A stretch of 28,766 nucleotides of DNA from a virus. Below the pieces are notes generated by a model that saw only the letters and a list, made by a program, of their open reading frames with translations, did not search any database and was not told where the DNA came from. A program made the translations under genes and the position numbers. Shown piece after piece: positions 3,397 to 27,253 of this stretch. The stretch lies in IMG/VR virus record IMGVR_UViG_3300031963_012095, positions 1 to 28,766 of that record, one strand, 5' to 3'. The first letter of the stretch is position 1, and each line of letters begins with the position of its first letter.

Positions 3397-6300
3397 ATGG
3401 GATTGTGGGACATACTTGTACCATCAGAGCCAGGGGTATTGCATAACTTAATTGCAAATCCATCGTTTGAATATGACAACAACGAGATTGATGTGGCACG
3501 ATTAAATCCTCCAAGTGGTGGGTCAACCGTTGCCGAGATTGCATCATTCCGCACACTTCCAGCGAACACAGGTATTACATATTGGACTGCATTAAAAGGA
3601 GCAGGAGTTGCTCGCTCATCATCATGGGCATCTCGTGGCTCATACAGTTTAAAAATCAATGCAGGGACATCTACCAATGGTGGCACTGTGTATGACCCAC
3701 GATTATCATCGCCATCTCCAAGTGTAGGCGTTTCTGTATCTGAAGTTGCACCATCGGACAACATACCACCTGCGTGGTCAAACATTCCAGCATCTCGACA
3801 ATTTCACGTTGCAGTATTTGGTTTAACTGATACAGGTATGGCATTGGCTAATGGTATTAGTGATACACAATTTTATTACAATACCGATACGGAAGACATT
3901 GTTGCGTATCCGACAATGGATGCAAAAAGAGGTCATACCACACCGTATTTTTCTAGCCTTCCAAGCATCACAAGTAATCCTGGTAAATCCATAAAGGTGG
4001 TTATTAGCGGTGGTCAAGACTCAACTGCAAATGCAACTATTCGAGGTTGGGCAGTGTGGTACAGTATGGACACCACAACTACAAAACGGTACGTTCTTGC
4101 ATCAATTGTTCCTGCATCTGCCGACGTTGGAACAAGCACAACAGTATTTATTCACAAAGTAATTAATCAAGTAAATGTTGACACTGTATTAACTCCAACA
4201 TTGTGCACGGGCAAAATCTACATGTATCCGTTTGCGGTTGACGGTGAGTACATTGTCAAAGGTGTTAACACATCGTTTTTGACTGAATGTCCAGCAGGTA
4301 CAGATTTATATGTCCTTGCCGACATTAACCAGCCAAATGGTGAAAAACAATTTCTGGGAAGAGTTGCAGACCAGGGAAAGGTTACTGTAACGGGTGGCAA
4401 CACTGTTTCCGTTACAGCAGGTGGTGACAGTGTCACGGTAAGCGGATTTCCCACTGCGCCATTTTTGGTCGGAAGAGAAATATACACGTCTGCTGGTGTG
4501 TTGATTGGAACGGTTAAACGTGCGTTAAGCAACACATCGGCAATCCTTGAATCAAACGCAACAATCAACTACAGCGGTAGTTATCAATATTCTGTTGCAA
4601 CACAAACAGAAATCCGCATTCAACAAAAATCTACTACAACACCAATTGGATTTGATTTTTATCGCATGGTATCTACCAACGTGCAATCATATCCAGACAA
4701 TCCAATAGGTGCAATTAGTGCATTTAGTTGCAATCCCTCATCAAATACAAATTTCTTACCTGCGTCAATGGGAATTAATTGTAGTGCGCCATATTTCGGT
4801 ATTACCAATAACACATTTGCAAATAACACATATAAGCATCATTTGTATCTTGATTGGTATTTGTCATCACCAAATCTTATCAATCCAAATGCCACATACA
4901 CTGACACTGGTGCAAGATGGAAAGTGATGCTGGTCAACATTACATCGGATGCAATACAGCCAGCAGGGTTGACTATTACCACTCAGCGAGGTAATGTATC
5001 GGCAACCATAACAAACGCTTCTGGCTTTGCGCAAGGTGATTGTATTTACACTACAAATTATGAGTTTGTAGGAGAAATTAAAACAATCAATGGAAACTCT
5101 ATAACATTTTATAACTTAGCATTTATTTCTCTTACTGCAAGTGCGTTCCGAAAACTTGCATTTAATGCAGGTACGTCGTTAGGTACATTAGATGCCAGCA
5201 ACGCAACACAATTAAACGCAAAACGCATGGGATTGCGCACAAAGTTTTTGGTAACGCCACCGTCAGGTGACACATCACGCATGCAATTGCGATTTCAATA
5301 TACAGGCACAACAAGTGATGCAGATTTGTATATTGATGGCATACAATTTGTTGATTCGGGGATGATTTGGCGGTCATACGATTATTACGGTAACTCATTA
5401 AACACGTATGTCAATCCTCCGCAATTTAGTGACTGGAATTGGGATGATGTCGATTTTTCGTATGTAGACGGTGACGTTCCTGGCGCAATATGGGCAGACA
5501 CAATGCCTACGCAAAGCGGTACATATAGCAACACGTTTCCGTATTTTACAAATGACGGTGTGTGGCATGCAGACTTTGATGAATATGATTCATCACAATC
5601 TGGTCATGGCATGGGAACGCCTCGGTTTCGGCAACAGTATCAATGGCGAAACGAAGCCAAACCTGTATATGGCGTATCAGTACCAGGTTTATCACAAAGT
5701 TCATTGTTGACACAAACATTTACCACTGGATTTTGGGCTTCATTAGACACCGATAACATCAATGTTGTGGTAGAGCCGACAATTTCTGGTACGGGTATGC
5801 CTGAAATAGCAACAACTGCATTGGAATATGGCATCACTGACGGTGGATTTGTGCAACGACAAGTTGCACGAATGCGAAACATGCAGTTCAATGTCACAAT
5901 ATCCGCCAAATCATGGGTTGGATTGCACGCAAATCGTCGTTCATTAATTAACTTGCTTAAGTTCGACCAACTTGCGCAACAAGGCGAAAGAATGTTGCGA
6001 TACACAGGCGCAGACACGCCTGTGGTAACTCGCATTACATATATCGGCGGATTAGAGTTTAGTGGCGTGCAAACACAAAGTTTTACTGAAGTTCTTGGTT
6101 TGCGTTTTTTAAGTGCTGACCCATATTTTTATACAGAAGTACCGTTTACGCAAAATGTTAGCCCGTCATCAACGTTAAACGAGTCTGCAAGCGTGTACTA
6201 CAAATTAGGGAATGCATCTGAATGGACTCCGTTAAACTTTCACAAAAACGAAATGACATTAACTGCTGACGAGTTGATTGTAAATGGCGAAAGCACGCCT

Positions 6301-16495: not shown

Positions 16496-16909
16496 ATGAT
16501 TAGTAGATTTTTAAATAGAGTGCAACGATTGTATCTAACGTATCCTATTTACGTCAAACATGTTGATTACTATGGAAAAGAATGTGCAATTCCTGAAGAT
16601 GAATCACTTATTGATGAGCCATATTCTAAAGATGAGGCTATGCGAATGGTGCGATTGCGTAGAAATGAATTGCTCGTTGCAACTGATTGGACGCAAATGC
16701 CAGATGTTAATATTGACGACCTTACACGTCAACGATACCGTGAATATCGTCAAGCACTGCGAGATTATCCGCAACTTATTAACCTCGACGATTGGTCTGC
16801 ACCTGCATGGCCAACGTTAATTCTTGATATATCACTAGAAGTTACACCAGAAGTTACACCAGAAGTTACACCAGAAGTTACACCAGAAGTTACACCAGAA
16901 GTTTCTTGA
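16496..16909 (+). CDS. Phage_tail_APC-like tail assembly chaperone with C-terminal EVTP repeats
   Basis: A 137-residue protein with a strong ribosome site (TAGGAG) before ATG 16496. The core VRLRRNELLVATDWTQMPDV, followed by YREYRQALRDYP and a final AWP, is the signature of the Phage_tail_APC family (PF16778), usually found at the end of tail or tail-fibre operons. The family is named as a tail assembly chaperone, but its exact role is poorly defined. The C-terminus is unusual: five perfect EVTP repeats from 12-bp DNA units, then EVS. The TGA stop (16907-16909) lies inside the -35 box of the next promoter, so this gene's end and the following unit are fused. Confidence 0.82.
   Translation: MISRFLNRVQRLYLTYPIYVKHVDYYGKECAIPEDESLIDEPYSKDEAMRMVRLRRNELLVATDWTQMPDVNIDDLTRQRYREYRQALRDYPQLINLDDWSAPAWPTLILDISLEVTPEVTPEVTPEVTPEVTPEVS
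16838..16906 (+). repeat. 12-bp tandem repeat (GAAGTTACACCA) at the end of the APC-like gene
   Basis: Five identical 12-bp units run from 16838 to 16897, followed by a partial sixth (GAAGTT) at 16898-16903. Each unit encodes Glu-Val-Thr-Pro, so gain or loss of units keeps the frame. The perfect identity suggests recent slippage. The array stops three bases before the promoter's -35 box. Confidence 0.95.
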
Positions 16910-16935
16910 CAAAATATATATTTGTGTGATACAAT
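16906..16935 (+). promoter_or_regulatory. Sigma70-type promoter P1
   Basis: The -35 is TTGACA at 16906-16911, then an 18-base spacer and the -10 TACAAT at 16930-16935, with an extended -10 TGA just upstream. The -35 overlaps the stop codon of the preceding gene. Spacer start and leader are nearly identical to P2 and P3. It should drive the gene at 16973. Confidence 0.85.
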
Positions 16936-16972
16936 TAGCCTTGTAGTTGTTACATGAAAGGAACAAACTATC

Positions 16973-17467
16973 ATGGCGAAGTTTAGTCAGTTAGAGATTG
17001 GTCAAGAGTGGGCGTTTTCACAGCACTACCAAGGATATGCTGAAGTGCCATGGGGTGCTGGCAAAGTCGTAATTGTGGACACACAGCCACATTACAAGTT
17101 TAAGTCAAGTCGTTTTGCCACTTCGATGTATCGCCCTGCAAAACAGGGTGAGCGTGGGATGTATGTCAAGGTTCGTTTTGATGGGTATTTGAGCGATGAG
17201 TTTGTGTATGCTCCTCACTTGTTTAAGAAGTGGGATGTATATCAAGAATTGTTGCAAAAGCAAACAGAATTTGCTGATAAGCAACAGCGTGTTTTGGAAG
17301 AAGCGGAGCGGTTTCGTCAAGTAAATCTTGTCCCAAAACTTCGTGATATTGCGGAAATGCTTTCCGAATTGACGCAAACGCCAATTACTCGGTTTGAACT
17401 TGAAAAGTTGCAGTTGCCACATGCAGAATTGTTGCACGAACTGCTTACTGAAAAAACCTACAAGTAA
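16973..17467 (+). CDS. Small phage protein of unknown function, paralogue A
   Basis: A 164-residue protein beginning MAKFSQLEIGQEWAFS; start fixed by AAAGGA 10 bases upstream and by the matching start of its paralogue at 17590. The N-terminal half is a compact beta-rich domain with VPWGAGKVVIVDT, GERGMYVKVRFDG and FVYAPHLFKKWD. The C-terminal half is helical and charged (LLQKQTEFADKQQRVLEE), perhaps a coiled coil. It has its own promoter (P1) and terminator, so it looks like a moron-type unit inserted after the tail operon. I do not recognise a characterised family. The beta domain might be a small nucleic-acid- or protein-binding barrel, but nothing proves it. Confidence 0.8.
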   Translation: MAKFSQLEIGQEWAFSQHYQGYAEVPWGAGKVVIVDTQPHYKFKSSRFATSMYRPAKQGERGMYVKVRFDGYLSDEFVYAPHLFKKWDVYQELLQKQTEFADKQQRVLEEAERFRQVNLVPKLRDIAEMLSELTQTPITRFELEKLQLPHAELLHELLTEKTYK

Positions 17468-17475
17468 ATTATCAA

Positions 17476-17522
17476 CAAGTCCGTCAACGTGTTGAAACAA
17501 CATTTTGGCGGATTTGTTTTTT
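17476..17522 (+). terminator. Intrinsic terminator after paralogue A
   Basis: Arm 17476-17487 (CAAGTCCGTCAA) pairs with 17505-17516 (TTGGCGGATTTG) over 12 bp including two G-U pairs. An inner stem TGTTG/CAACA caps it, and six T follow. The T-run is followed directly by the -35 of promoter P2. Confidence 0.85.
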
Positions 17523-17524
17523 AT

Positions 17525-17552
17525 TTGACAAAATATATATTTGCGTTATAAT
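17525..17552 (+). promoter_or_regulatory. Sigma70-type promoter P2
   Basis: TTGACA at 17525-17530, a 16-base spacer and a consensus TATAAT at 17547-17552. It is nearly identical to P1 and P3 through the spacer and drives the gene at 17590. Both boxes are at consensus, so constitutive transcription by the host housekeeping polymerase is expected unless repressed. Confidence 0.9.
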
Positions 17553-17557
17553 TACTT

Positions 17558-17572
17558 ATGTAGTTGTTACAT
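17558..17572 (+). promoter_or_regulatory. Inverted repeat in the conserved leader (possible operator or 5' hairpin)
   Basis: ATGTA-gttgt-TACAT lies 6-20 bases past the -10 box, around the expected transcription start. The P1 copy (16941-16955) has one changed base in the left arm. The P3 copy diverges in the right arm. It could be a repressor site or a small 5' hairpin; conservation by recent duplication alone is equally possible. Confidence 0.4.
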
Positions 17573-17589
17573 GAAAGGAACAAACTATC

Positions 17590-18132
17590 ATGGCGAAGTT
17601 TAGTGAGTTGGAAATTGGTCAAGAATGGGCTGAATCTGGCGAGCGCACTCCTGCATGGCAAGTGCCATGGAGTGCCAGTCGGGTGGTGATTGTAGACACA
17701 CATCCGTATGACAAGAATTCGTGGAAGAATGTGTATACTCGTGCAAGCAAGGGCACTCGTGGAATGTACGTCAAGGTCAAGGTGCTGGGTTGGGTTAATC
17801 CAACTGTTGATTTGGAAAACGCTCGTGACTCATATGTATACGCTCCTCACTTGTTCATGAAGTGGGATGAGTATAAGGTCAAGTTTGACAAACAAAAAGC
17901 CGACCGTGATGCCTACAACGAGCAACAGTCTAATCGCTTGCGTCATTCGGAGCAAGTCATTCGTCCAAAGGTTGTCAATATGGTTGCGTTAATGACAAAA
18001 ATTCTGCAAGCAGATAATCGTAATCGTATTTCCGAGTATGATTTGAAAGGCATGATTTCAAACCACAATGCTGAAAAGTATGTGGATTTGATGATTCGCT
18101 TGCTCGAAGCCGAGTTGGATAAGTCCAAGTAA
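17590..18132 (+). CDS. Small phage protein of unknown function, paralogue B
   Basis: A 180-residue paralogue of the gene at 16973. Shared blocks in the same order are MAKFSELEIGQEWA, VPWSASRVVIVDTHPY, RGMYVKVKV and YVYAPHLFMKWDEYK, followed by a charged helical tail (KFDKQKADRDAYNEQQ). The tail has diverged strongly between the two, while the N-terminal domain and leader DNA are nearly the same. That points to duplication of a whole promoter-gene unit followed by tail divergence. It has its own promoter (P2) and terminator. AAAGGA lies 10 bases before ATG, the same unusually long spacing as in paralogue A. Function unknown. Confidence 0.8.
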   Translation: MAKFSELEIGQEWAESGERTPAWQVPWSASRVVIVDTHPYDKNSWKNVYTRASKGTRGMYVKVKVLGWVNPTVDLENARDSYVYAPHLFMKWDEYKVKFDKQKADRDAYNEQQSNRLRHSEQVIRPKVVNMVALMTKILQADNRNRISEYDLKGMISNHNAEKYVDLMIRLLEAELDKSK

Positions 18133-18147
18133 GCCAATTTCTCACTA

Positions 18148-18193
18148 AAAAAGACTATTGCGTTGCTGAAATCAGTATCGCAATAGTCTTTTT
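18148..18193 (+). terminator. Intrinsic terminator after paralogue B
   Basis: A perfect 15-bp stem pairs 18148-18162 (AAAAAGACTATTGCG) with 18179-18193 (CGCAATAGTCTTTTT) around a 16-base loop. The arms carry A- and T-tracts at the outer ends, so it can work on either strand. Promoter P3's -35 begins three bases after it. Confidence 0.92.
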
Positions 18194-18195
18194 AT

Positions 18196-18223
18196 TTGAC
18201 AAAATATATATTTGCGTTATAAT
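18196..18223 (+). promoter_or_regulatory. Sigma70-type promoter P3
   Basis: TTGACA at 18196-18201, a 16-base spacer identical to that of P2, and TATAAT at 18218-18223. It drives the gene at 18257. The shared sequence continues past the -10 into the leader before diverging. Confidence 0.9.
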
Positions 18224-18256
18224 TACTTATGTAGTTATTGAATGAAAGGAACAGAC

Positions 18257-18736
18257 ATGACTACAGATGAGCAAAAGTCAACACACGTAGATGTTGAACT
18301 GCCCGAAGTAAAAGTTGATGTGGAAGTTAAAACGGTAAAGAAGAAGGCGTTGACTGACCGTCAGTGTCGTTCAATCTTCAACAAAGCACATCACGCTGGT
18401 GTGCAGTCCGCTAAGCGATGCAAGCCTGTGCCAATGGTTGTTGGCACTCCCAAAACTCCATTCGGAAACAACATTGATACATCAAAAAAGATGTATTACG
18501 TTGAGGGTGGCGTATGTGGGTTTGCGTGGGTCGAGATTCACCCAGCACGAGGAAAATTTGTGCAGTGGTTGAAGAAAAACGACCACGGACACAAGAGCGA
18601 TTACTTTGGCGGATGGCACATCGGTGTGTTTATTAACACTCAATCGTTAGCACGCAACGAGGCATACGCCCGTGCGTTTGCACAGGTGCTGTGTGACAAC
18701 GGGATTAACGCCCGAGCAAACTCACGCATCGACTAA
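18257..18736 (+). CDS. Conserved phage protein of unknown function (CGFAWV / PARG type)
   Basis: A 159-residue protein. I chose ATG 18257 over the in-frame ATG 18242. The upstream one lies inside the leader shared with P1/P2 and would swallow the AAAGGA ribosome site, while 18257 lies six bases after it. Residues 1-30 are charged and Val/Lys-rich, probably flexible. The rest has MVVGTPKTPFG, YYVEGGVCGFAWVEIHPARG, FVQWLKK, GGWHIGVF and NARANSRID. As far as I recall, this set of motifs recurs in conserved hypothetical proteins of many unrelated phages with no assigned role. It may bind a ligand or nucleic acid, but I cannot support that. Third unit in the promoter-gene-terminator series. Confidence 0.8.
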   Translation: MTTDEQKSTHVDVELPEVKVDVEVKTVKKKALTDRQCRSIFNKAHHAGVQSAKRCKPVPMVVGTPKTPFGNNIDTSKKMYYVEGGVCGFAWVEIHPARGKFVQWLKKNDHGHKSDYFGGWHIGVFINTQSLARNEAYARAFAQVLCDNGINARANSRID

Positions 18737-18784
18737 AAAAAGCACGTTTCTTGTCTGGCAATCAGATAAGAAACGTGCTTTTTT
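18736..18784. terminator. Bidirectional intrinsic terminator between convergent genes
   Basis: Arms 18736-18756 and 18764-18784 pair almost perfectly (core AAGCACGTTTCTT, one G-U pair) around a 7-base loop, with A-tract and T-tract ends. It should stop + strand transcription from P3 and - strand transcription from the nuclease gene, which ends at 18798. Confidence 0.92.
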
Positions 18785-18797
18785 GTGTGCTTTTGGG

Positions 18798-19250
18798 TTA
18801 ACTATTTTTGATATTTTTGCGAGGTACTTTTATTTTGGCATGTTGTCTGTCATATGCATCAAGTGCCATATCAAGATTGTATTTTTTAGGGTCACGACCA
18901 ATGTACTCTACAATGGTAATCGCCGCACGCACCCATCCGTAGCACACATCTGTTTTCCATCCTTGTGCTTGCAGAACATCTAGCCATACTAGTTGCTCTT
19001 TCGTGGTGCGATTCACTCCTGCTTTCATTTCAATAGCAAGACCATTGTATTTTCCAAATCCAATTGGAAACAACAAATCAGGTACGCCACGTTTAACCCC
19101 AGCCGCTTTCATTTGCGCCGCCACCACAGGATGTCGATGACCTCCATTTGGTACGTGAAACAAATACTGCAACATTGGTTCTTGCGATTCAATCATCGCC
19201 AAAAACTCAAACAATGTTTTCTGTTCAATTAATTCATTTTGTTTTGCCAT
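18798..19250 (-). CDS. VRR-NUC domain nuclease
   Basis: A 150-residue protein read leftward. The start at 19250 is chosen because AAGGAG lies six bases upstream; a longer frame to 19385 would run through a hairpin and the 43-residue gene. The VRR-NUC fold (PD-(D/E)XK superfamily) shows clearly. There is HVPNGGHRH near residue 32, GVKRGVPDLLFP with the metal-binding Asp at 58, and LAIEMK with Glu74 and Lys76. Gln86 lies in KEQLVWL and YGW at 104-106. Stand-alone phage VRR-NUC proteins are structure-specific endonucleases thought to resolve or trim branched DNA during replication or packaging. All expected catalytic residues are present. Confidence 0.93.
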   Translation of the reverse strand: MAKQNELIEQKTLFEFLAMIESQEPMLQYLFHVPNGGHRHPVVAAQMKAAGVKRGVPDLLFPIGFGKYNGLAIEMKAGVNRTTKEQLVWLDVLQAQGWKTDVCYGWVRAAITIVEYIGRDPKKYNLDMALDAYDRQHAKIKVPRKNIKNS

Positions 19251-19270: not shown

Positions 19271-19305
19271 AACACCGCACCACAAAATTGCTGTGGTGCG
19301 GTGTT
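19271..19305 (-). terminator. Terminator-like hairpin between the 43-residue gene and the VRR-NUC gene
   Basis: A perfect 14-bp GC-rich stem pairs 19271-19284 with 19292-19305 around a 7-base loop. Read on the - strand it is followed by a short T-run and then the VRR-NUC ribosome site. It should end much of the transcript of the 43-residue gene, so nuclease expression would depend on read-through. Confidence 0.8.
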
Positions 19306-19323: not shown

Positions 19324-19455
19324 CTAGCTCCAACCAAAAATGCGGAAAATTGATTCCAAGATAACCGTAGTAACTGCGTTGGCAATCACATAGCCAACTA
19401 CAAATCCGACAATGACTACCAATAGAAATATCGTCCATTCAAAAACTGCGTCCAT
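19324..19455 (-). CDS. 43-residue single-span membrane protein
   Basis: A short - strand gene from ATG 19455 to TAG 19324. It starts MDAVFEW and has one long hydrophobic stretch at residues 8-30 (TIFLLVVIVGFVVGYVIAN); the C-terminus is short and amphipathic (ESIFRIFGWS). AAAGGA lies just upstream, the same ribosome-site motif used by the three + strand units, and a good sigma70 promoter precedes it (19482-19510). The combination of promoter, ribosome site, intact frame and terminator makes it a credible gene despite its size. A holin-like, superinfection-exclusion or membrane-modifying role is possible, but nothing selects among these. Confidence 0.75.
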   Translation of the reverse strand: MDAVFEWTIFLLVVIVGFVVGYVIANAVTTVILESIFRIFGWS

Positions 19456-19481: not shown

Positions 19482-19510
19482 ATAATAACACACCATATAC
19501 ACTTTGTCAA
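19482..19510 (-). promoter_or_regulatory. Sigma70-type promoter on the minus strand
   Basis: Read leftward: TTGACA (19510-19505), a 17-base spacer, then TATTAT (19487-19482), about 27 bases before ATG 19455. It should drive the 43-residue gene and, by read-through, the VRR-NUC gene. It resembles P1-P3 in layout but not in spacer sequence. Confidence 0.85.
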
Positions 19511-19516
19511 TTTTAT

Positions 19517-20191
19517 TTACATTCCATTTAATAATTGTGTAATAAAATCTTGAATACGATTCACAAAATCTGGCGTTTCTTGCTCTGCAACATCATCAAC
19601 AGTATTCCATCGACCACGATGAATTGAAGATTGCGTTGCACGACGTTGCACCCATTTAGCGTAAGGTACATTGTTATCAATATTTACTGATGCCGCTGCG
19701 TTTGCAATTGATGGTACAGAATCTATGGAATATGTCACGTCAATATCAAACGAAACAGTTGCCACACGCCATCCTTGTTGTAAAGCAAATGTGCGATTAT
19801 ATGTACTTCCCGTAGGTGCAGGTGGATATTGCATTAATTTTGTGCGCATTTGTTCTGCACTTAGCGTTGCTTCAGCAGAAATGATAGACGGAATGCTTTC
19901 CGCAAGTCCATCACACACATCTGCAAATTCATAAAATCCCTCGCCTGGACTTCCTGAAGAACGATTCGGTTTGCGTGATGATGCGTAGTTTTTTGTAACT
20001 GCACGAGGATTTGAGCCACGAATATCAGATATACGACTACTCAGCATGGATGTAAGTTTTGAAAAAAAAGCAGATGGCGTAACCGAACTCCAAGAGGTTA
20101 CGCCACGAATAATTTGTTGTGATTGTTGTGCAATCGCACCAGATATGTTGCTTAAAAAAGAACCTACTTTGTTTGAAATAAAGTTAAACAT
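19517..20191 (-). CDS. HK97-gp10-like head-tail joining / minor structural protein
   Basis: A 224-residue protein starting at ATG 20191 after AAAGAG. The C-terminal half has motifs seen in HK97-gp10-like phage proteins: MRTKLMQYPPAPTGSTYNRT, LQQGWRV, VPYAKWVQRRATQSS and HRGRWNTVDDVAEQ, then a helix (FVNRIQDFITQLL). The N-terminal 90 residues are Ser-rich and variable, perhaps an extension. Family members sit at the connector or tail terminator region and help join heads to tails. It lies 32 bases after the terminase small subunit gene on the same strand, so the two are probably co-transcribed. It is odd that a structural gene is read against the main tail operon. Gp10-like is my best match; exact position in the virion is unknown. 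Confidence 0.6.
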   Translation of the reverse strand: MFNFISNKVGSFLSNISGAIAQQSQQIIRGVTSWSSVTPSAFFSKLTSMLSSRISDIRGSNPRAVTKNYASSRKPNRSSGSPGEGFYEFADVCDGLAESIPSIISAEATLSAEQMRTKLMQYPPAPTGSTYNRTFALQQGWRVATVSFDIDVTYSIDSVPSIANAAASVNIDNNVPYAKWVQRRATQSSIHRGRWNTVDDVAEQETPDFVNRIQDFITQLLNGM

Positions 20192-21142: not shown

Positions 21143-21266
21143 CCTCACGCTTGTGTATTGAATCGCACTGTTTTATTTTTATTACAAACAAAAAAATTGC
21201 TTTCCCCTCATTTAAACTAGCAATCTGGTGCGACAATCAATATGTGCTCATAGAGAAAGTCTAATT

Positions 21267-23357
21267 ATGAGCAAACTATTTTCCCCCATCACTCAAATGC
21301 CTGGAAATTCAGGTAAAAGCAGTACAGCATCGGCTATGACACGATATGCTGTCAACAAATCATTTTCAAAAGGAGAAAATATGGCAAAACGAACAAGTTT
21401 AAAAGATTTATTTGCTAGTGCTTATGCACTAGTGGGACGAAAACCAAAAAGAAGACGGGTTTCAACAGTGGGTACTGGTACTGGTACTGGTACTGGTACT
21501 GGTACTGGTACTGGTACTGGTACTGGTACTGGTACTGGTACTGGTACTGGTACTGGTACTGGTGGTGCACGTCCAGCAACTGGCGGTACTGGTACTGGTA
21601 CTGGTACTGGTACTGGTACTGGTGGTGCACGTCCAGCAACTGGTGGTGGCGGTGGTGCAACTGGTGGCGGTAAACGCAAAAAATCATCTAAAACTGCAAG
21701 CCCAGCACCTGTTTACATATCACCAATGTCAAGTACAACAACAAGACCAGTTGGTCCTTTCGGAAGGTTAATGGGTTATACCGTTGGGGGGTTGTCAACA
21801 GTACCATATCGAGCTGCTAATTTTGGAGTTGGAATAGCTCGAGGTACTAATAAAATCCTTGCCAATATGGCTAGAGCGTCAGAAGAAAGTCTTGCTGGCG
21901 CACTTAGTGCGGCACGAAGTGCTAAAAACAAAAGATTAGGAACTGTCGCATCGTTAAATAGCGATTTTGACGCAAACATAGCATCTGCTAACACTAGAAG
22001 TAAAAATTGGGGAGAATGGGCGCAAGGAAACCCGACACTTGCCGCACTTATGCTTGGTGGTACAGTTGGTGCAGGTGTTGGCGCAACAAAAGCAGTGATA
22101 GAAGCTGCGAATCGTTTTAATAACTGGCGCAATCCACCTGCTGATGAAGGTCCAAAAGGGTTTCGTGATAATCGCCGTATGACCGCAGGAGGGTCTGGTG
22201 CAATGGGTAAGAGAATGACAAAACGCTCAATGCGCAAAAATGCACCTGGCGTATATGGGAATAACAACGCTCGCATGAGAGAAGAGATGCGTCGTTCAGG
22301 TTCGGCGCAATATCGTGGCAATCCACAAGCAACCACTGTTGCAAGTCCGCTTGAGCAAATGTATGCGTATATTGCACCTCGTGTTGTATCAGCAGCTAAG
22401 CAAGCCGAACAATTTGGTAGACAAACATACGGTAACGCTTTAAATTACGGCGGTCAGGTTGCCGACTTAATTGCAAACGAGCGAGCAAAAGGAATTGGTC
22501 CAATGTCTGGTAGCGTAACAGTTGTTACTAATCGCAATACGGGTCAAACCAAGCGAGTGGCAATGCCCACTGCGCAAGAAGTATATGCTCGTGCGAAAAC
22601 AGTAGGTCTACGACCACAGTCAGGTCAGTATGGTGATGCGTCAGCTGTTGAGCGAGCATTGCAGTTTGTACGTGATTGGGGTGAGAGCAATCTTCCAACA
22701 CAAGCACCGAAACTTACTGGTGGATTAGGCGACACATATCGTAATAAAACTATTCGCAATGCAAAGGGTGATTGGGTTTCTGCATATACCGATTTACCAG
22801 GTGGTTCAAAACAAGCAATTCGAGAGGACAAGCGACTTGGTGGTCTTGCAGTTAAACCTAGCATGCAGGTTTGGGATACCGCTACCATGTCATCACGAAG
22901 CAAGCCTCGTTGGTCGGAACAGATGAAGGCAAAAGAAAACTACGTATACGACAAAGACGCTCAGCGATATAAGTCAACAACACGTAGAGATAGCAACGCA
23001 ATTACTGCGTTTGAGCAAAAGCAGAAGCAATATCGTCCCAAAGCTATTTCTGCGTCACAAACTGCCGAGGCAATTGCAGCTGCATTGGAAAATCAAGGTG
23101 GAAGTCGATATAGAATTGTGATTGACCCTAAAAATTTTAATAAGTCTATGAAAAAAAGTCAATCAATGCGCAAACCTTCACGACATGATTTGTATGGTCA
23201 CGCATCAATGGGTGGTCGAGCCATGATGAAGTCAGTATCAAGCCTGAGAAATGCAGGAACACGACATTTGGTTGGCGGATACCGAGGTGGCACACGGCTT
23301 CATAAAGCGGCAACGCCCACGTTGGCAACTCGTAACTTCCGAGCAAAGTACGAGTAA
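21267..23357 (+). CDS. Large basic, Gly-Thr-repeat protein of unknown function
   Basis: A 696-residue protein if it starts at ATG 21267 (MSKLFSPITQ), or 658 from ATG 21381 (MAKRTSLKDL). The second start has the better ribosome site (AGGAG, five bases upstream). The first resembles the start of the protein at 27253 (MSKYSTPIMP), which is why I prefer it; both may be used. About residues 69-118 are two runs of Gly-Thr (15 and 6 units) joined by GGARPATG. The rest is rich in Arg, Lys, Gly, Ala and Ser with few hydrophobic cores. One small-residue segment (LAALMLGGTVGAGVGAT) might be membrane-seeking. It looks like a mostly disordered, perhaps virion-associated, DNA-binding or injected protein; that is inference. 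No recognised domain. Confidence 0.7.
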   Translation: MSKLFSPITQMPGNSGKSSTASAMTRYAVNKSFSKGENMAKRTSLKDLFASAYALVGRKPKRRRVSTVGTGTGTGTGTGTGTGTGTGTGTGTGTGTGTGGARPATGGTGTGTGTGTGTGGARPATGGGGGATGGGKRKKSSKTASPAPVYISPMSSTTTRPVGPFGRLMGYTVGGLSTVPYRAANFGVGIARGTNKILANMARASEESLAGALSAARSAKNKRLGTVASLNSDFDANIASANTRSKNWGEWAQGNPTLAALMLGGTVGAGVGATKAVIEAANRFNNWRNPPADEGPKGFRDNRRMTAGGSGAMGKRMTKRSMRKNAPGVYGNNNARMREEMRRSGSAQYRGNPQATTVASPLEQMYAYIAPRVVSAAKQAEQFGRQTYGNALNYGGQVADLIANERAKGIGPMSGSVTVVTNRNTGQTKRVAMPTAQEVYARAKTVGLRPQSGQYGDASAVERALQFVRDWGESNLPTQAPKLTGGLGDTYRNKTIRNAKGDWVSAYTDLPGGSKQAIREDKRLGGLAVKPSMQVWDTATMSSRSKPRWSEQMKAKENYVYDKDAQRYKSTTRRDSNAITAFEQKQKQYRPKAISASQTAEAIAAALENQGGSRYRIVIDPKNFNKSMKKSQSMRKPSRHDLYGHASMGGRAMMKSVSSLRNAGTRHLVGGYRGGTRLHKAATPTLATRNFRAKYE
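21471..21644 (+). repeat. GGTACT hexanucleotide repeats with a duplicated 24-bp linker
   Basis: Fifteen perfect GGTACT units (21471-21560) are followed by a 24-bp linker encoding GGARPATG, six more units (21585-21620) and a second linker copy with one changed base. Each unit adds Gly-Thr without shifting frame. This is a slippage-prone minisatellite with a second-level duplication of array plus linker. Confidence 0.97.
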
Positions 23358-23372
23358 GTAAGTTGGTAAGGC

Positions 23373-23414
23373 AACGTGGGGAATGAAAAGAGATTTCTTC
23401 CCCACGTTTTGTTG
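23373..23414 (+). terminator. Hairpin with short T-run between the two large repeat-rich genes
   Basis: An 11-bp perfect stem pairs 23373-23383 (AACGTGGGGAA) with 23398-23408 (TTCCCCACGTT), followed by TTGTTG. The stem is strong but the T-run is short, so it may be a partial terminator or an mRNA-stabilising end. Confidence 0.6.
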
Positions 23415-23431
23415 CAGTTATAGAGGTATAT

Positions 23432-26400
23432 ATGACTAAATCACGTAAGGTAATGTCGTTTCAAGAATACATGCAAAACATTGCAAAATCTGCGTCAACC
23501 AAAAAACGGTCACGCATAAAAAAAGAAGATACGTCGCCTCCAATTACGCCAACGCCAACAGCGACATATACGTATACGCCAACTGCAACACGCACAGTTA
23601 GTCCAACGATGACTGCAACACGCACAGTTAGTCCAACAATGACTGCAACGCCAACAGTTGTGCCAGAGTATGTAAAAAACGTAGTAAGAAAACCTTCTGC
23701 ACCTTTGGCAAGAGTTACAAACACGCCTGATGTTGAGCCTAGTATAACAACAACAAGCACACCTGAAACTGAACAAACTGCAACAACCATTCCATCAATT
23801 ACTCCTACTCGATACACAACAAACCCTAACGACAAATTTACAGGTAGAGTAGATGCAATTAGTAGTAGTCCTATGCCATTAATGGGAAGTGCAGTTCCAG
23901 TAGAAGAAGCAATGTCTGGCGAAAGAGGTCAAGGAATTAAAGACATGACAGGGCAAGATGCAATATCATTTGGTCCAACTGCATGGCCTGTTCAACCTTC
24001 GGCTACGGCATTTAGACCAGCTGGATTTCCTGCAGCATTTGTTGCTGAAGAAAAAGACATGCCTGTAATATCGCAAGGCAGGTCACAAGAACTTGCAAGC
24101 AATGTGGGGAAAATGGTTGAAGATTTGCAAGTCATTTTTGGACCGCAATCAGATGTATTCAATGAAATTAATCCAGAAAACATAAAATTAAATGCATCAA
24201 TGTTTCCTACAAATGCAGTAACAGATAAAGATGGAAAGCCTTTAGTGCCTGAAACGTTAGCAGAATTAATTTCATTGCCATACAGTGCTGCGTTGCAAAG
24301 AAAATATCGAAGAAGCACGTATAACATGGATGACTTGAATGTTCTAGCAGGTTTTTCAAACGACATTAACAGCGTATCCACAGCTGTCTTTAACGAAGCA
24401 AGGGGAACTGGCGAAAATGCACGAGCAAATGCACTAGCAAGATTTAACGCAGTTGGAGCAGCTACCAGAGAACAGGAAATGAATTCAATTTTTGGTGCAT
24501 CTGACCAAAATTTAAAAAGTCAAAGTGAAATAAATTCAGATATTGCAAACATCGCATCGCCACTTGGTGTTTCATTTGCAAACATGTATCGTGCACAACA
24601 AATTGCAAACAGAGCTAGAGATGTAGAAGCTACACTATTAAATGAAGCTAATAATGTAGAAGTTACAGGTAAATTGCCAGATAATATTAAAGCAATTCAA
24701 TCTGGCGTAGAGGATGATGCAAAAGTTGCTCTTGCTAATATTACAAATTTAATTAATTCTGGCAAAACAAATGTAAGTGCTACAGACATCATTAGATTGA
24801 TGAATGCAAACGATTATAAAGACCCAAACAAGCAATTGAAATCAGGTAGAACCAAAAGTGGACTTGAATACATTGATGTGCCAATTAATGGTCAAATATA
24901 TCGTCTTGCTACAAATGGCGAATATACAAGAGCTATTTCAGCCACTGACATGACGCAAACTGCACAAGCAAGAAGAAATCCAGTCTCAACAACGCCAACT
25001 GCAAATGCATCTCCTGTTGCTACAACAAGCCCAAATGAGGCTATTGAAAGACAAAAAGCGTTAGACGCACAAAGATTGGGAACAATTGACGAGTATGTTG
25101 GCGCAGAAAGTTTTGGCGGTAACGAACTTGCTCGATTGATTAATGAAGCAGTATATGGAGATGGGACAACCCCTGGTAACTTTAAAATTATACAAACAGA
25201 CCCAAATACAAAAGAACAATTTATTGAAACAAAACGAGGGCGCACATATGTACAGGTTGATAATAATGGAAATATTATTCCTGTAGATATTCGCACCAAA
25301 CCGACATTAACTGCATTGGCAGGGAAAAAACCTGGTGATGTTACCGAAAATCCATCGCCATCGCCATCTCCTGTTGTTACACCAACAATGAGTCCAAATG
25401 AGGCTATTGAAAGACAAAAAGCGTTAGACGCACAAAGATTGGGAACAATTGACGAGTATGTCGGCGCAGAAAGTTATGGCGGTAACGAACTTGCTCGATT
25501 GATTAATGAAGCAGTATATGGAGATGGGACAACCCCTGGTAACTTTAAAATTATACAAACAGACCCAAATACAAAAGAACAATTTATTGAAACAAAACGA
25601 GGGCGCACATATGTACAGGTTGATAATAATGGAAATATTATTCCTGTAGATATTCGCACCAAACCGACATTAACTGCATTGGCAGGGAAAAAACCTCAAG
25701 ACGATAATATTACATTAAACCCCAACGAGGGTGTTGACGCAAATAATTTGCCATTGAATGACATTGATGATTTTGATTTTTCTCGCATTCCTGTAAATGA
25801 AAATGCGTTATACGATTTTGTGTCAAAGCAACCTGAACTTGCAAGACGTTTGGGCATTTCAAGCGACGTTGATAATGTTCGAGTTCGACCTGTAGGCAAT
25901 GCTATGGATTACAAATTTACAGAAGCTCTTGGATATAGTCCAGATGAAAACACTGTTTTAGCGTTGGATTCAAGTAAATCTCCTAGTTGGTATGTTCCGT
26001 CAGTATGGACAACAGTTCCATCGACAAGTGCGAGAGGGCAAGATTCATCAGAAAGCGAACAACCATACTGGGAACAATTTACGCCAAATGGTATGCGTCC
26101 ACCTAGTGCACCGAGTGCGCCAACAGCTCCTGCTGAGCAGGGATGGGGTGGGCAATTTTGGAATTGGATTACCAGTCCTTTTAGTGATGCGCAAGGAATG
26201 GGTGCACCAAAAGCATATGCCGCAGATAGAAAAACCGCAACGCCATCTGCTCCATCAGGAACTGCAATTGCTGCGCAACAACAAGCAACAGGTTCTAAAA
26301 CGGTTACGCCGACACCGACACAAACTACAACGCCGACATCAACTGCAACACGCACTGTTAGCCCGACAATAACCGCAACACCAACTGCAACTGCATCGCA

Positions 26401-27253
26401 AGTTATGGCACCTAAAGTTAATCCTGCGCAAATTGCAGTTCAGCAACAAGAATTGCAACGACAAAAAGCGCAACAACAAGCACAAGCGGTGCTCAGTTCG
26501 TCGCAAAACAAAGCAGTTTCACGTTGGTCAGCACCAAGCGGAGCAATGCAAGCGGCACAACAACAAGCACAGGCGCAACAGCAAGCGCAACAAGCACAAA
26601 AACCTATGATGCCACAACCGCAGCCGTTTGACCCATCCAAAATGGGGTATACTGCGCCAACTGCAACAACACAATATGGTGCATATAAACCAACGGGGTC
26701 GGCAACCGCTGGAACGCCAGCTACGGCGACGCAACCAATGACAGCAACACAACCAATGAACACTACGAAACCAACAACGCAAACAAGTGGTTCACGAGGA
26801 AGCGCGGCGATGAAACGTGATAAAAAGAAGTCAGGTAAGTTAAAAAAAGATATTAGTGTTGGAACTGGGTTGACTGCACATGCAACGCAACCTGTAAAAG
26901 AATCGCCGATGCCAAAAATTAAAACATCGTATGGTCGATACAAATATCCAAAACCAACTGCCACTTCCAAATATGGCGTTACAAATGACACATTTAAAAA
27001 ACAAGACGGAATGGTTTATCCTCGTCAAAATGTAATGCCAGCACCACCTGCACGTCAACATAATCGGGTGCAACAAATGCCAATGAGTTACGAGTCTCCA
27101 CAATATGTACGAAAAATGGCAGGTAGTGAAACAATGAATGACATGCAGTTTACCGCACCTGCGTTACCAAAACAAGAAAATAAACCTGCATCACTATCAC
27201 ATACAAAGTACACATCATTAAACAACGATAAATATAAAAAACGAGGTGAGTAA
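23432..27253 (+). CDS. Large Thr/Pro/Gln-rich repeat protein of unknown function
   Basis: A 1,273-residue protein from ATG 23432 (AGAGG upstream). It has a basic N-terminus, then Thr/Pro linkers built on TATRTVSPT that recur near residue 970. A more ordered, helical region (about 210-500) includes LPYSAALQRKYRR and FANMYRAQQIANRARDVEA. Two nearly identical 101-residue copies at 534-634 and 655-755 contain LDAQRLGTIDEYVGAES and KIIQTDPNTKEQFIE. Next come an aromatic patch (GQFWNWITSPF, about 907-917), a Gln/Ala-rich coiled stretch (about 1000-1060) and a Lys/Tyr-rich tail. The layout of small ordered blocks on long flexible linkers suggests a large structural or surface protein. No enzyme domain is seen. 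Its TAA overlaps the next ATG (TAATG). Confidence 0.75.
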   Translation: MTKSRKVMSFQEYMQNIAKSASTKKRSRIKKEDTSPPITPTPTATYTYTPTATRTVSPTMTATRTVSPTMTATPTVVPEYVKNVVRKPSAPLARVTNTPDVEPSITTTSTPETEQTATTIPSITPTRYTTNPNDKFTGRVDAISSSPMPLMGSAVPVEEAMSGERGQGIKDMTGQDAISFGPTAWPVQPSATAFRPAGFPAAFVAEEKDMPVISQGRSQELASNVGKMVEDLQVIFGPQSDVFNEINPENIKLNASMFPTNAVTDKDGKPLVPETLAELISLPYSAALQRKYRRSTYNMDDLNVLAGFSNDINSVSTAVFNEARGTGENARANALARFNAVGAATREQEMNSIFGASDQNLKSQSEINSDIANIASPLGVSFANMYRAQQIANRARDVEATLLNEANNVEVTGKLPDNIKAIQSGVEDDAKVALANITNLINSGKTNVSATDIIRLMNANDYKDPNKQLKSGRTKSGLEYIDVPINGQIYRLATNGEYTRAISATDMTQTAQARRNPVSTTPTANASPVATTSPNEAIERQKALDAQRLGTIDEYVGAESFGGNELARLINEAVYGDGTTPGNFKIIQTDPNTKEQFIETKRGRTYVQVDNNGNIIPVDIRTKPTLTALAGKKPGDVTENPSPSPSPVVTPTMSPNEAIERQKALDAQRLGTIDEYVGAESYGGNELARLINEAVYGDGTTPGNFKIIQTDPNTKEQFIETKRGRTYVQVDNNGNIIPVDIRTKPTLTALAGKKPQDDNITLNPNEGVDANNLPLNDIDDFDFSRIPVNENALYDFVSKQPELARRLGISSDVDNVRVRPVGNAMDYKFTEALGYSPDENTVLALDSSKSPSWYVPSVWTTVPSTSARGQDSSESEQPYWEQFTPNGMRPPSAPSAPTAPAEQGWGGQFWNWITSPFSDAQGMGAPKAYAADRKTATPSAPSGTAIAAQQQATGSKTVTPTPTQTTTPTSTATRTVSPTITATPTATASQVMAPKVNPAQIAVQQQELQRQKAQQQAQAVLSSSQNKAVSRWSAPSGAMQAAQQQAQAQQQAQQAQKPMMPQPQPFDPSKMGYTAPTATTQYGAYKPTGSATAGTPATATQPMTATQPMNTTKPTTQTSGSRGSAAMKRDKKKSGKLKKDISVGTGLTAHATQPVKESPMPKIKTSYGRYKYPKPTATSKYGVTNDTFKKQDGMVYPRQNVMPAPPARQHNRVQQMPMSYESPQYVRKMAGSETMNDMQFTAPALPKQENKPASLSHTKYTSLNNDKYKKRGE
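23582..23641 (+). repeat. 30-bp tandem repeat encoding TATRTVSPTM
   Basis: Two 30-bp units (23582-23611 and 23612-23641) differ at one base, and a diverged partial unit follows. A related unit occurs near 26342 in the same gene. They build the Thr/Pro-rich linkers. Confidence 0.9.
25031..25333 (+). repeat. 303-bp direct repeat, copy 1
   Basis: Matches 25394-25696 over 303 bp with two differences by my reading: one silent T/C and one T/A changing Phe to Tyr (AESFGG versus AESYGG). It encodes a 101-residue domain within the 1,273-residue protein. Confidence 0.97.
25394..25696 (+). repeat. 303-bp direct repeat, copy 2
   Basis: Second copy, offset 363 bases from copy 1 and in frame with it. The 60-bp spacer encodes a Ser/Pro/Thr linker (TENPSPSPSPVVTPTM), so the duplicated unit is one domain plus one linker. 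Confidence 0.97.

Follow-up and report, generated by a model that had tools for sequence, protein, structure and literature searches.

Three predicted promoter–gene–terminator units behind the tail operon of an uncultured phage: a probable local cluster within a phage-wide set of short transcription units

Three short transcription units are predicted in a row 3′ of the tail operon in the phage DNA analysed here, and they form a local cluster within a phage-wide set of such units rather than a special slot for genes acting in the lysogen. The window, i.e. the whole stretch under analysis, is the 28,766-nt IMG/VR record IMGVR_UViG_3300031963_012095, from an uncultured phage. A first-pass annotation had described three consecutive units in this position (P1–A–T1, P2–B–T2 and P3–C–T3), and sequence prediction places the three promoters, the three genes and three strong terminators where that annotation had them; its interpretation as a whole is partly supported. 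The explanation we favor, which we hold to be probable though by no means secure, is that A, B and C belong to a dispersed group of short, mostly single-gene units that share a host-polymerase promoter module and are each closed by a terminator. The region is a tidy and fairly ordinary piece of phage gene wiring, a fresh example of a known gene organization, and does not establish a new mechanism. Its interest is threefold: (i) a genome-wide promoter module, with terminators directly 5′ of the next promoter, occurs in an uncultured group without cultured relatives, (ii) the region is a clear instance of a multi-unit block passing between lineages and (iii) the orphan genes A/B and C, together with the promoter motif, make a defined set for testing host modulation.

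Arrangement of the units

The features of the region are as follows (window coordinates, strand).
16496..16909, +: tail (fibre) assembly chaperone gene, with which the tail operon ends (Pfam Phage_tail_APC, E 1.5e-14)
16906..16935, +: P1, TTGACA-N18-TACAAT, 11/12 consensus match with an 18-nt spacer, PWM score 27.0
16956..16964, +: ribosome site GAAAGGAAC, seen in the sequence and common to the three leaders
16973..17467, +: gene A, 164 aa (ORF; counterparts in lineages L055 and L059)
17474..17524, +: T1, intrinsic terminator, fold −24.7 kcal/mol, ending in a T run
17525..17552, +: P2, 12/12 match to TTGACA-N16-TATAAT (also by PWM)
17590..18132, +: gene B, 180 aa, paralogue of A (ORF; protein comparison)
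18148..18193, +: T2, intrinsic terminator, inverted repeat, fold −26.9 kcal/mol, T run at end
18196..18223, +: P3, 12/12 match to TTGACA-N16-TATAAT (also by PWM)
18257..18736, +: gene C, 159 aa, with ATG at 18257 (the listed ORF begins at 18242)
18736..18784, no strand assigned: T3, terminator between the convergent genes C and VRR-NUC, fold −31.5 kcal/mol, T run at end
18798..19250, −: VRR-NUC nuclease gene, right border of the exchanged block (Pfam VRR_NUC, E 2.5e-7)
19271..19305, −: T4, terminator of a fourth unit (terminator scan, fold)
19324..19455, −: 43-aa ORF of the fourth unit, which reads as a membrane peptide (from the sequence)
19482..19510, −: P4, TTGACA-N17-TATTAT, same promoter class as P1–P3 (consensus scan, PWM)

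Each of the three genes is followed, as had been proposed, by a strong predicted intrinsic terminator. T1 and T2 were missed by a simple terminator scan and were detected by folding, T2 also as an inverted repeat. Their T runs end 2–3 nt 5′ of the next TTGACA, in agreement with the earlier remark that they nearly touch the following −35. T3 has an A run on its 5′ side and a T run on its 3′ side, and is thus predicted to work, probably, in both directions.

The first unit differs in its left border. The TGA at 16907-16909 that stops the tail chaperone gene falls within the TTGACA of P1. As no terminator lies 5′ of P1, gene A is left open to the tail operon. Read-through from the operon should pass P1, reach gene A and end at T1, which would probably terminate the tail transcript as well. 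The chaperone gene carries 12-base tandem repeats, TTACACCAGAAG, at 16833-16903. At the protein level they give a C-terminal PEVT repeat; the copy number differs among relatives, and the repeats sit at the left border of the exchanged block.

Promoters P1–P3 and their leaders

The promoters were scored against the sigma70 consensus, on the assumption that the host polymerase recognizes them. Matches to TTGACA-N15..19-TAYAAT number three in the window, as compared with a mean of 0.18 and a maximum of 2 in 60 dinucleotide shuffles. The first-pass annotation had P1, P2 and P3 nearly identical from the −35 into the leader. This is borne out for P2 and P3, which show 94% ungapped identity over 68 nt (from just 5′ of the −35 into the leader), but P1 is less alike, with 75% identity to P2. 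Between the A and B units, the initial 101 nt (leader plus gene start) show 86% identity.

A recurrent promoter class in the phage group

The window was compared with two further IMG/VR lineages, L055 (G001, 40.5 kb) and L059 (G002, 30.4 kb, with its close relative G003); two short IMG/VR contigs besides these match the window exactly from end to end of the contigs. P1–P4 belong to a class of promoters that recurs in this group. In 11 distinct variants, TTGACAA-nn-T-r-TATAT is invariant (T at position 10, TATAT at positions 12–16), while the distance to the −10 varies from about 16 to 20 nt; most variants are accompanied by a GAAAGGA ribosome site. The PWM scan finds the class nine times in G001 and four times each in the window and G002, compared with fewer than one, at much lower score, in shuffles. 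Three of the nine G001 sites are in the block, one stands before a small membrane gene and five are in the right arm:
31526, 32583, 33189, -36909, -37782: right-arm promoters of G001 (PWM)

Behind the right-arm promoters lie genes for proteins of 263, 131, about 220 and 171 aa, except at 32583, where a tmRNA-like RNA follows; the absence of a ribosome site there is explained by this RNA gene. Strong hairpin terminators lie shortly 5′ of the G001 promoters at 3858, 4632, 32583, 33189 and -36909. In the window, a fourth unit on the minus strand (19510-19271) lies upstream of VRR-NUC. All three lineages have this unit, but L055 and L059 carry other short hydrophobic ORFs in place of the 43-aa ORF. 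As judged from these predicted elements, the promoter–gene–terminator layout is common for the non-structural genes of this phage group. The set is not strictly monocistronic, since promoter 31526 precedes two overlapping ORFs and VRR-NUC lies downstream of T4 without a promoter of its own.

A scan of the collection with a degenerate promoter plus ribosome-site pattern found at least three copies per contig only in the window's group, and one place each in unrelated contigs. Being genome-wide, the promoter class is the mark of a phage regulon and not of genes taken up recently. An exact promoter match in contig L006 is isolated, before an unrelated gene, and was set aside. Two unrelated larger phage contigs (L088 and L098, 72 and 145 kb) share one terminator hairpin and T run placed directly 5′ of a TTGACAAAATATATAT promoter, as in the window.

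The tmRNA-like gene of G001 (32622-32755; L070:12622-12755) is 134 nt long and directly 3′ of its class promoter. It matches Rfam RF00023 with 66 bits against a cut-off of 47 and is not reported by ARAGORN; the tRNA-like ends and the CCA end are kept and most of the usual internal domains are missing. A tmRNA consisting of the tRNA-like domain only is listed for mycobacteriophage DS6A (PMC4131195).

A more elaborate proposal is that TTGACAA-nn-T-r-TATAT combines a promoter with the operator of a phage regulator, driving a dispersed single-gene regulon that would include the very short tmRNA-like RNA, and that the block consists of host-modulating genes exchanged by recombination. We regard this as doubtful. 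In the preferred explanation, that of short units on a shared module, the host housekeeping RNA polymerase would read each unit from TTGACAA-nn-T-r-TATAT and an intrinsic terminator would close it, leaving the transcription and dosage of each gene uncoupled from the late tail operon. Expression of A, B and C would probably be early or constitutive rather than late. The 5′ leaders are partly common by descent, so that conservation of the spacer need not mean function.

Exchange of the block between lineages

In L055 and L059 the three-unit block also lies between the tail chaperone and VRR-NUC genes, and there too the stop codon overlaps the −35. The suggestion that the cassette is a reusable expression slot, into which different genes are placed, survives in part. 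The module appears portable, in that the same promoter stands before several unrelated genes in G001, as the proposed comparison of relatives was meant to reveal, but different genes were not found in the A/B/C slot: all three lineages hold the same three gene families there, and among the three there is no empty site, no other gene at the site and no relative without A, B and C. What does vary is the apparent order of the first two units and the ancestry of the block as a whole.

The first gene of the L055/L059 block groups with window B (support 85). The second is closest to window A (46% identity, with a grouping support of only 48), and in L055 the terminator region following the A counterpart aligns with the one following A. 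Taken together, these relationships suggest that the first two units have swapped order between the window and L055/L059.

L059 is the nearest lineage to the window over the greater part of the tail and terminase flanks. Within the block, L055 and L059 are mostly 90–99% identical to each other, falling to 72–78% where the first two genes become variable towards their 3′ ends; the window is ~40–65% identical to them over A and B and 68–88% over C and T3. dS between L055 and L059 is 0.31 for A, 0.63 for B, 0.13 for C and 0.38 for VRR-NUC, as compared with 1.37 and 1.69 for two tail genes and 1.60 for the gene at 19517-20191; values further right are intermediate (0.99 for the terminase small subunit and 0.72 for a 73-aa gene). 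Informative sites uniting L055 with L059 number 612 of 716 in the block versus 364 of 1,300 in the flanks; as these sites are linked rather than independent, a chi-square value computed on them cannot be read as a true probability. These contrasts between block and flanks, in site counts and in dS, indicate that the whole block has passed as one unit between the L055 and L059 lineages and that the flanks have not. In our model, relatives would swap as one piece the segment that runs from the chaperone 3′ end across A, B and C to VRR-NUC, probably by recombination in the conserved borders.

The proteins encoded by the block

A and B are paralogues of ∼40% identity (42% and 38% in two comparisons), and C, as had been noted, is unrelated to them, a comparison of B with C giving no similarity (E 5.8). 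A, B and C are all under purifying selection, with dN well below dS. For A/B there is no usable match in Pfam or PHROGs, and neither A/B nor the tail protein has a relative in host genome contigs, where no host or prophage was identified. Searches of cultured phages matched neither the region at the DNA level nor, at the protein level, B, C, the 404-aa tail protein or a distant A/B relative in contig L079. The matches to cultured phages are those of the terminase small subunit (phages of Microbacterium, Arthrobacter, Gordonia and Thermobifida, 32–43% identity among the matches listed) and of VRR-NUC, which matches many. The terminase resemblance points to an actinobacterial host.

Distant relatives of A/B, with 27–30% identity to A, occur in other uncultured phages among small genes near the terminase genes. 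In the phages with these distant relatives (L078:60-860 and L079:7950-9620), another recurrent promoter-like leader, CCCAGT...TATACT...AGAGAGGAGAAC, stands before several small genes. The C-terminal domain of gene C (CGFAWVEI...SRID, with SRxD among relatives) has relatives at 48 viral loci, and the protein matches PHROG 22149, which has no known function.

The structural model of gene A (mean pLDDT 82) shows a small β-barrel followed by a long helix. In fold comparison it reaches Z scores of up to 6.9 (DIM2, then PWWP, Tudor and KOW barrels), which may reflect a common arrangement only and is too weak for assigning a PWWP-, Tudor- or KOW-like function. The model of gene C (mean pLDDT 79) gives weak matches only, several of them ferredoxin-like, and its best fold comparison, to the EBNA1 DNA-binding domain (Z 5.8), may likewise reflect no more than a common arrangement. 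Neither model has a Foldseek match at E < 0.001. A, B and C may be small modulators that bind host components or nucleic acids, i.e. candidate nucleic-acid- or protein-binding proteins.

Comparison with known systems and alternative explanations

The nearest described system is ESAS/SAS of the Cluster K mycobacteriophages, which works alike, with two defining sequence features absent here. In Adephagia, seven SigA-like promoters with an inverted repeat precede genes, some of them just past the late operon (PMC11373665, PMC3203893). In both systems several near-identical SigA-like promoters (−35 to −10 with a symmetric element) are scattered in front of individual non-structural genes. These genes come from different families, and some lie just beyond the late structural operon; each system also has a shared sequence at its ribosome sites. 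G001 has nine such recurrent promoters and the window four. The window phage, however, has only an AT palindrome, AAATATATATTT, or a short TATAT core inside the spacer in place of an imperfect 15–17 bp inverted repeat, and its leaders carry GAAAGGAAC rather than the 13-bp GGGATAGGAGCCC before the start codon. It also has strong terminators directly 5′ of the next promoter and is much richer in A+T. A looser parallel, in architecture, is with the host-takeover genes of SPO1 and 0305phi8-36, which are monocistronic (PMC2147016). A module of the SPO1 type is a group of such genes that come on first once the phage DNA has been injected. There, too, small genes each apparently have their own short transcript and a recurrent promoter class, but the units here are behind a tail operon and only three are in a row.

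The first-pass annotation had viewed the triplet as moron architecture. Morons are single coding regions with a promoter and a terminator, located between genes that are adjacent in relatives (PMC4378225). The lambdoid and Mu-like examples share with A, B and C this layout beside structural genes (PMC4378225, PMC2147016), and each coding region here does have its own promoter and terminator by prediction. As an explanation, however, the moron account goes further: the genes would have been gained singly, be expressed from a repressed prophage and act on the host through exclusion, host change or counter-defence. The G+C contents of A, B and C (43.2, 44.8 and 47.7%) exceed the 37–42% of the tail genes, but within the window terminase and 709-aa genes also reach 44–46%. 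The genes have no relatives in cultured phages, and in Adephagia the lysogen expresses some of the genes that follow ESAS promoters just beyond the late operon (PMC11373665). Against this, the promoter is of the phage's own recurrent class, the three units are exchanged as a block, all three families are present at the site in every one of the three lineages compared, and no tyrosine integrase was found in four contigs, which may be incomplete. We therefore consider gain as classical morons unlikely.

A less likely account still is that A and B arose by tandem duplication together with their promoter and that the whole set serves late virion assembly along with the tail operon. The position directly behind the tail chaperone gene, the predicted read-through into A and the 86% identity of the A and B unit starts would fit. 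However, each gene has a consensus housekeeping-type promoter, the terminators would cut B and C off from the tail transcript, the same promoters serve non-structural genes in G001, and the distant A/B relatives are near terminase genes rather than in tail operons. We find this quite improbable. That VRR-NUC is a homing-type nuclease driving the spread of the block is barely credible: it borders the exchanged tract on the right and is 97–98% identical in all lineages, but its dS between the window and its relatives is an ordinary 0.74–0.77, so that the protein identity is largely due to purifying selection, and its relatives in 620 phage records fit a general DNA-processing role.

Long proteins of low complexity, in which pieces such as MMKSVSSMRSAGTRHLVGGYRGG recur, are encoded at 21228-27253 of the window and in L069/L070, G001 having several such genes, and GT-rich repeats occur within coding sequence at about 21460-21620 of the window.
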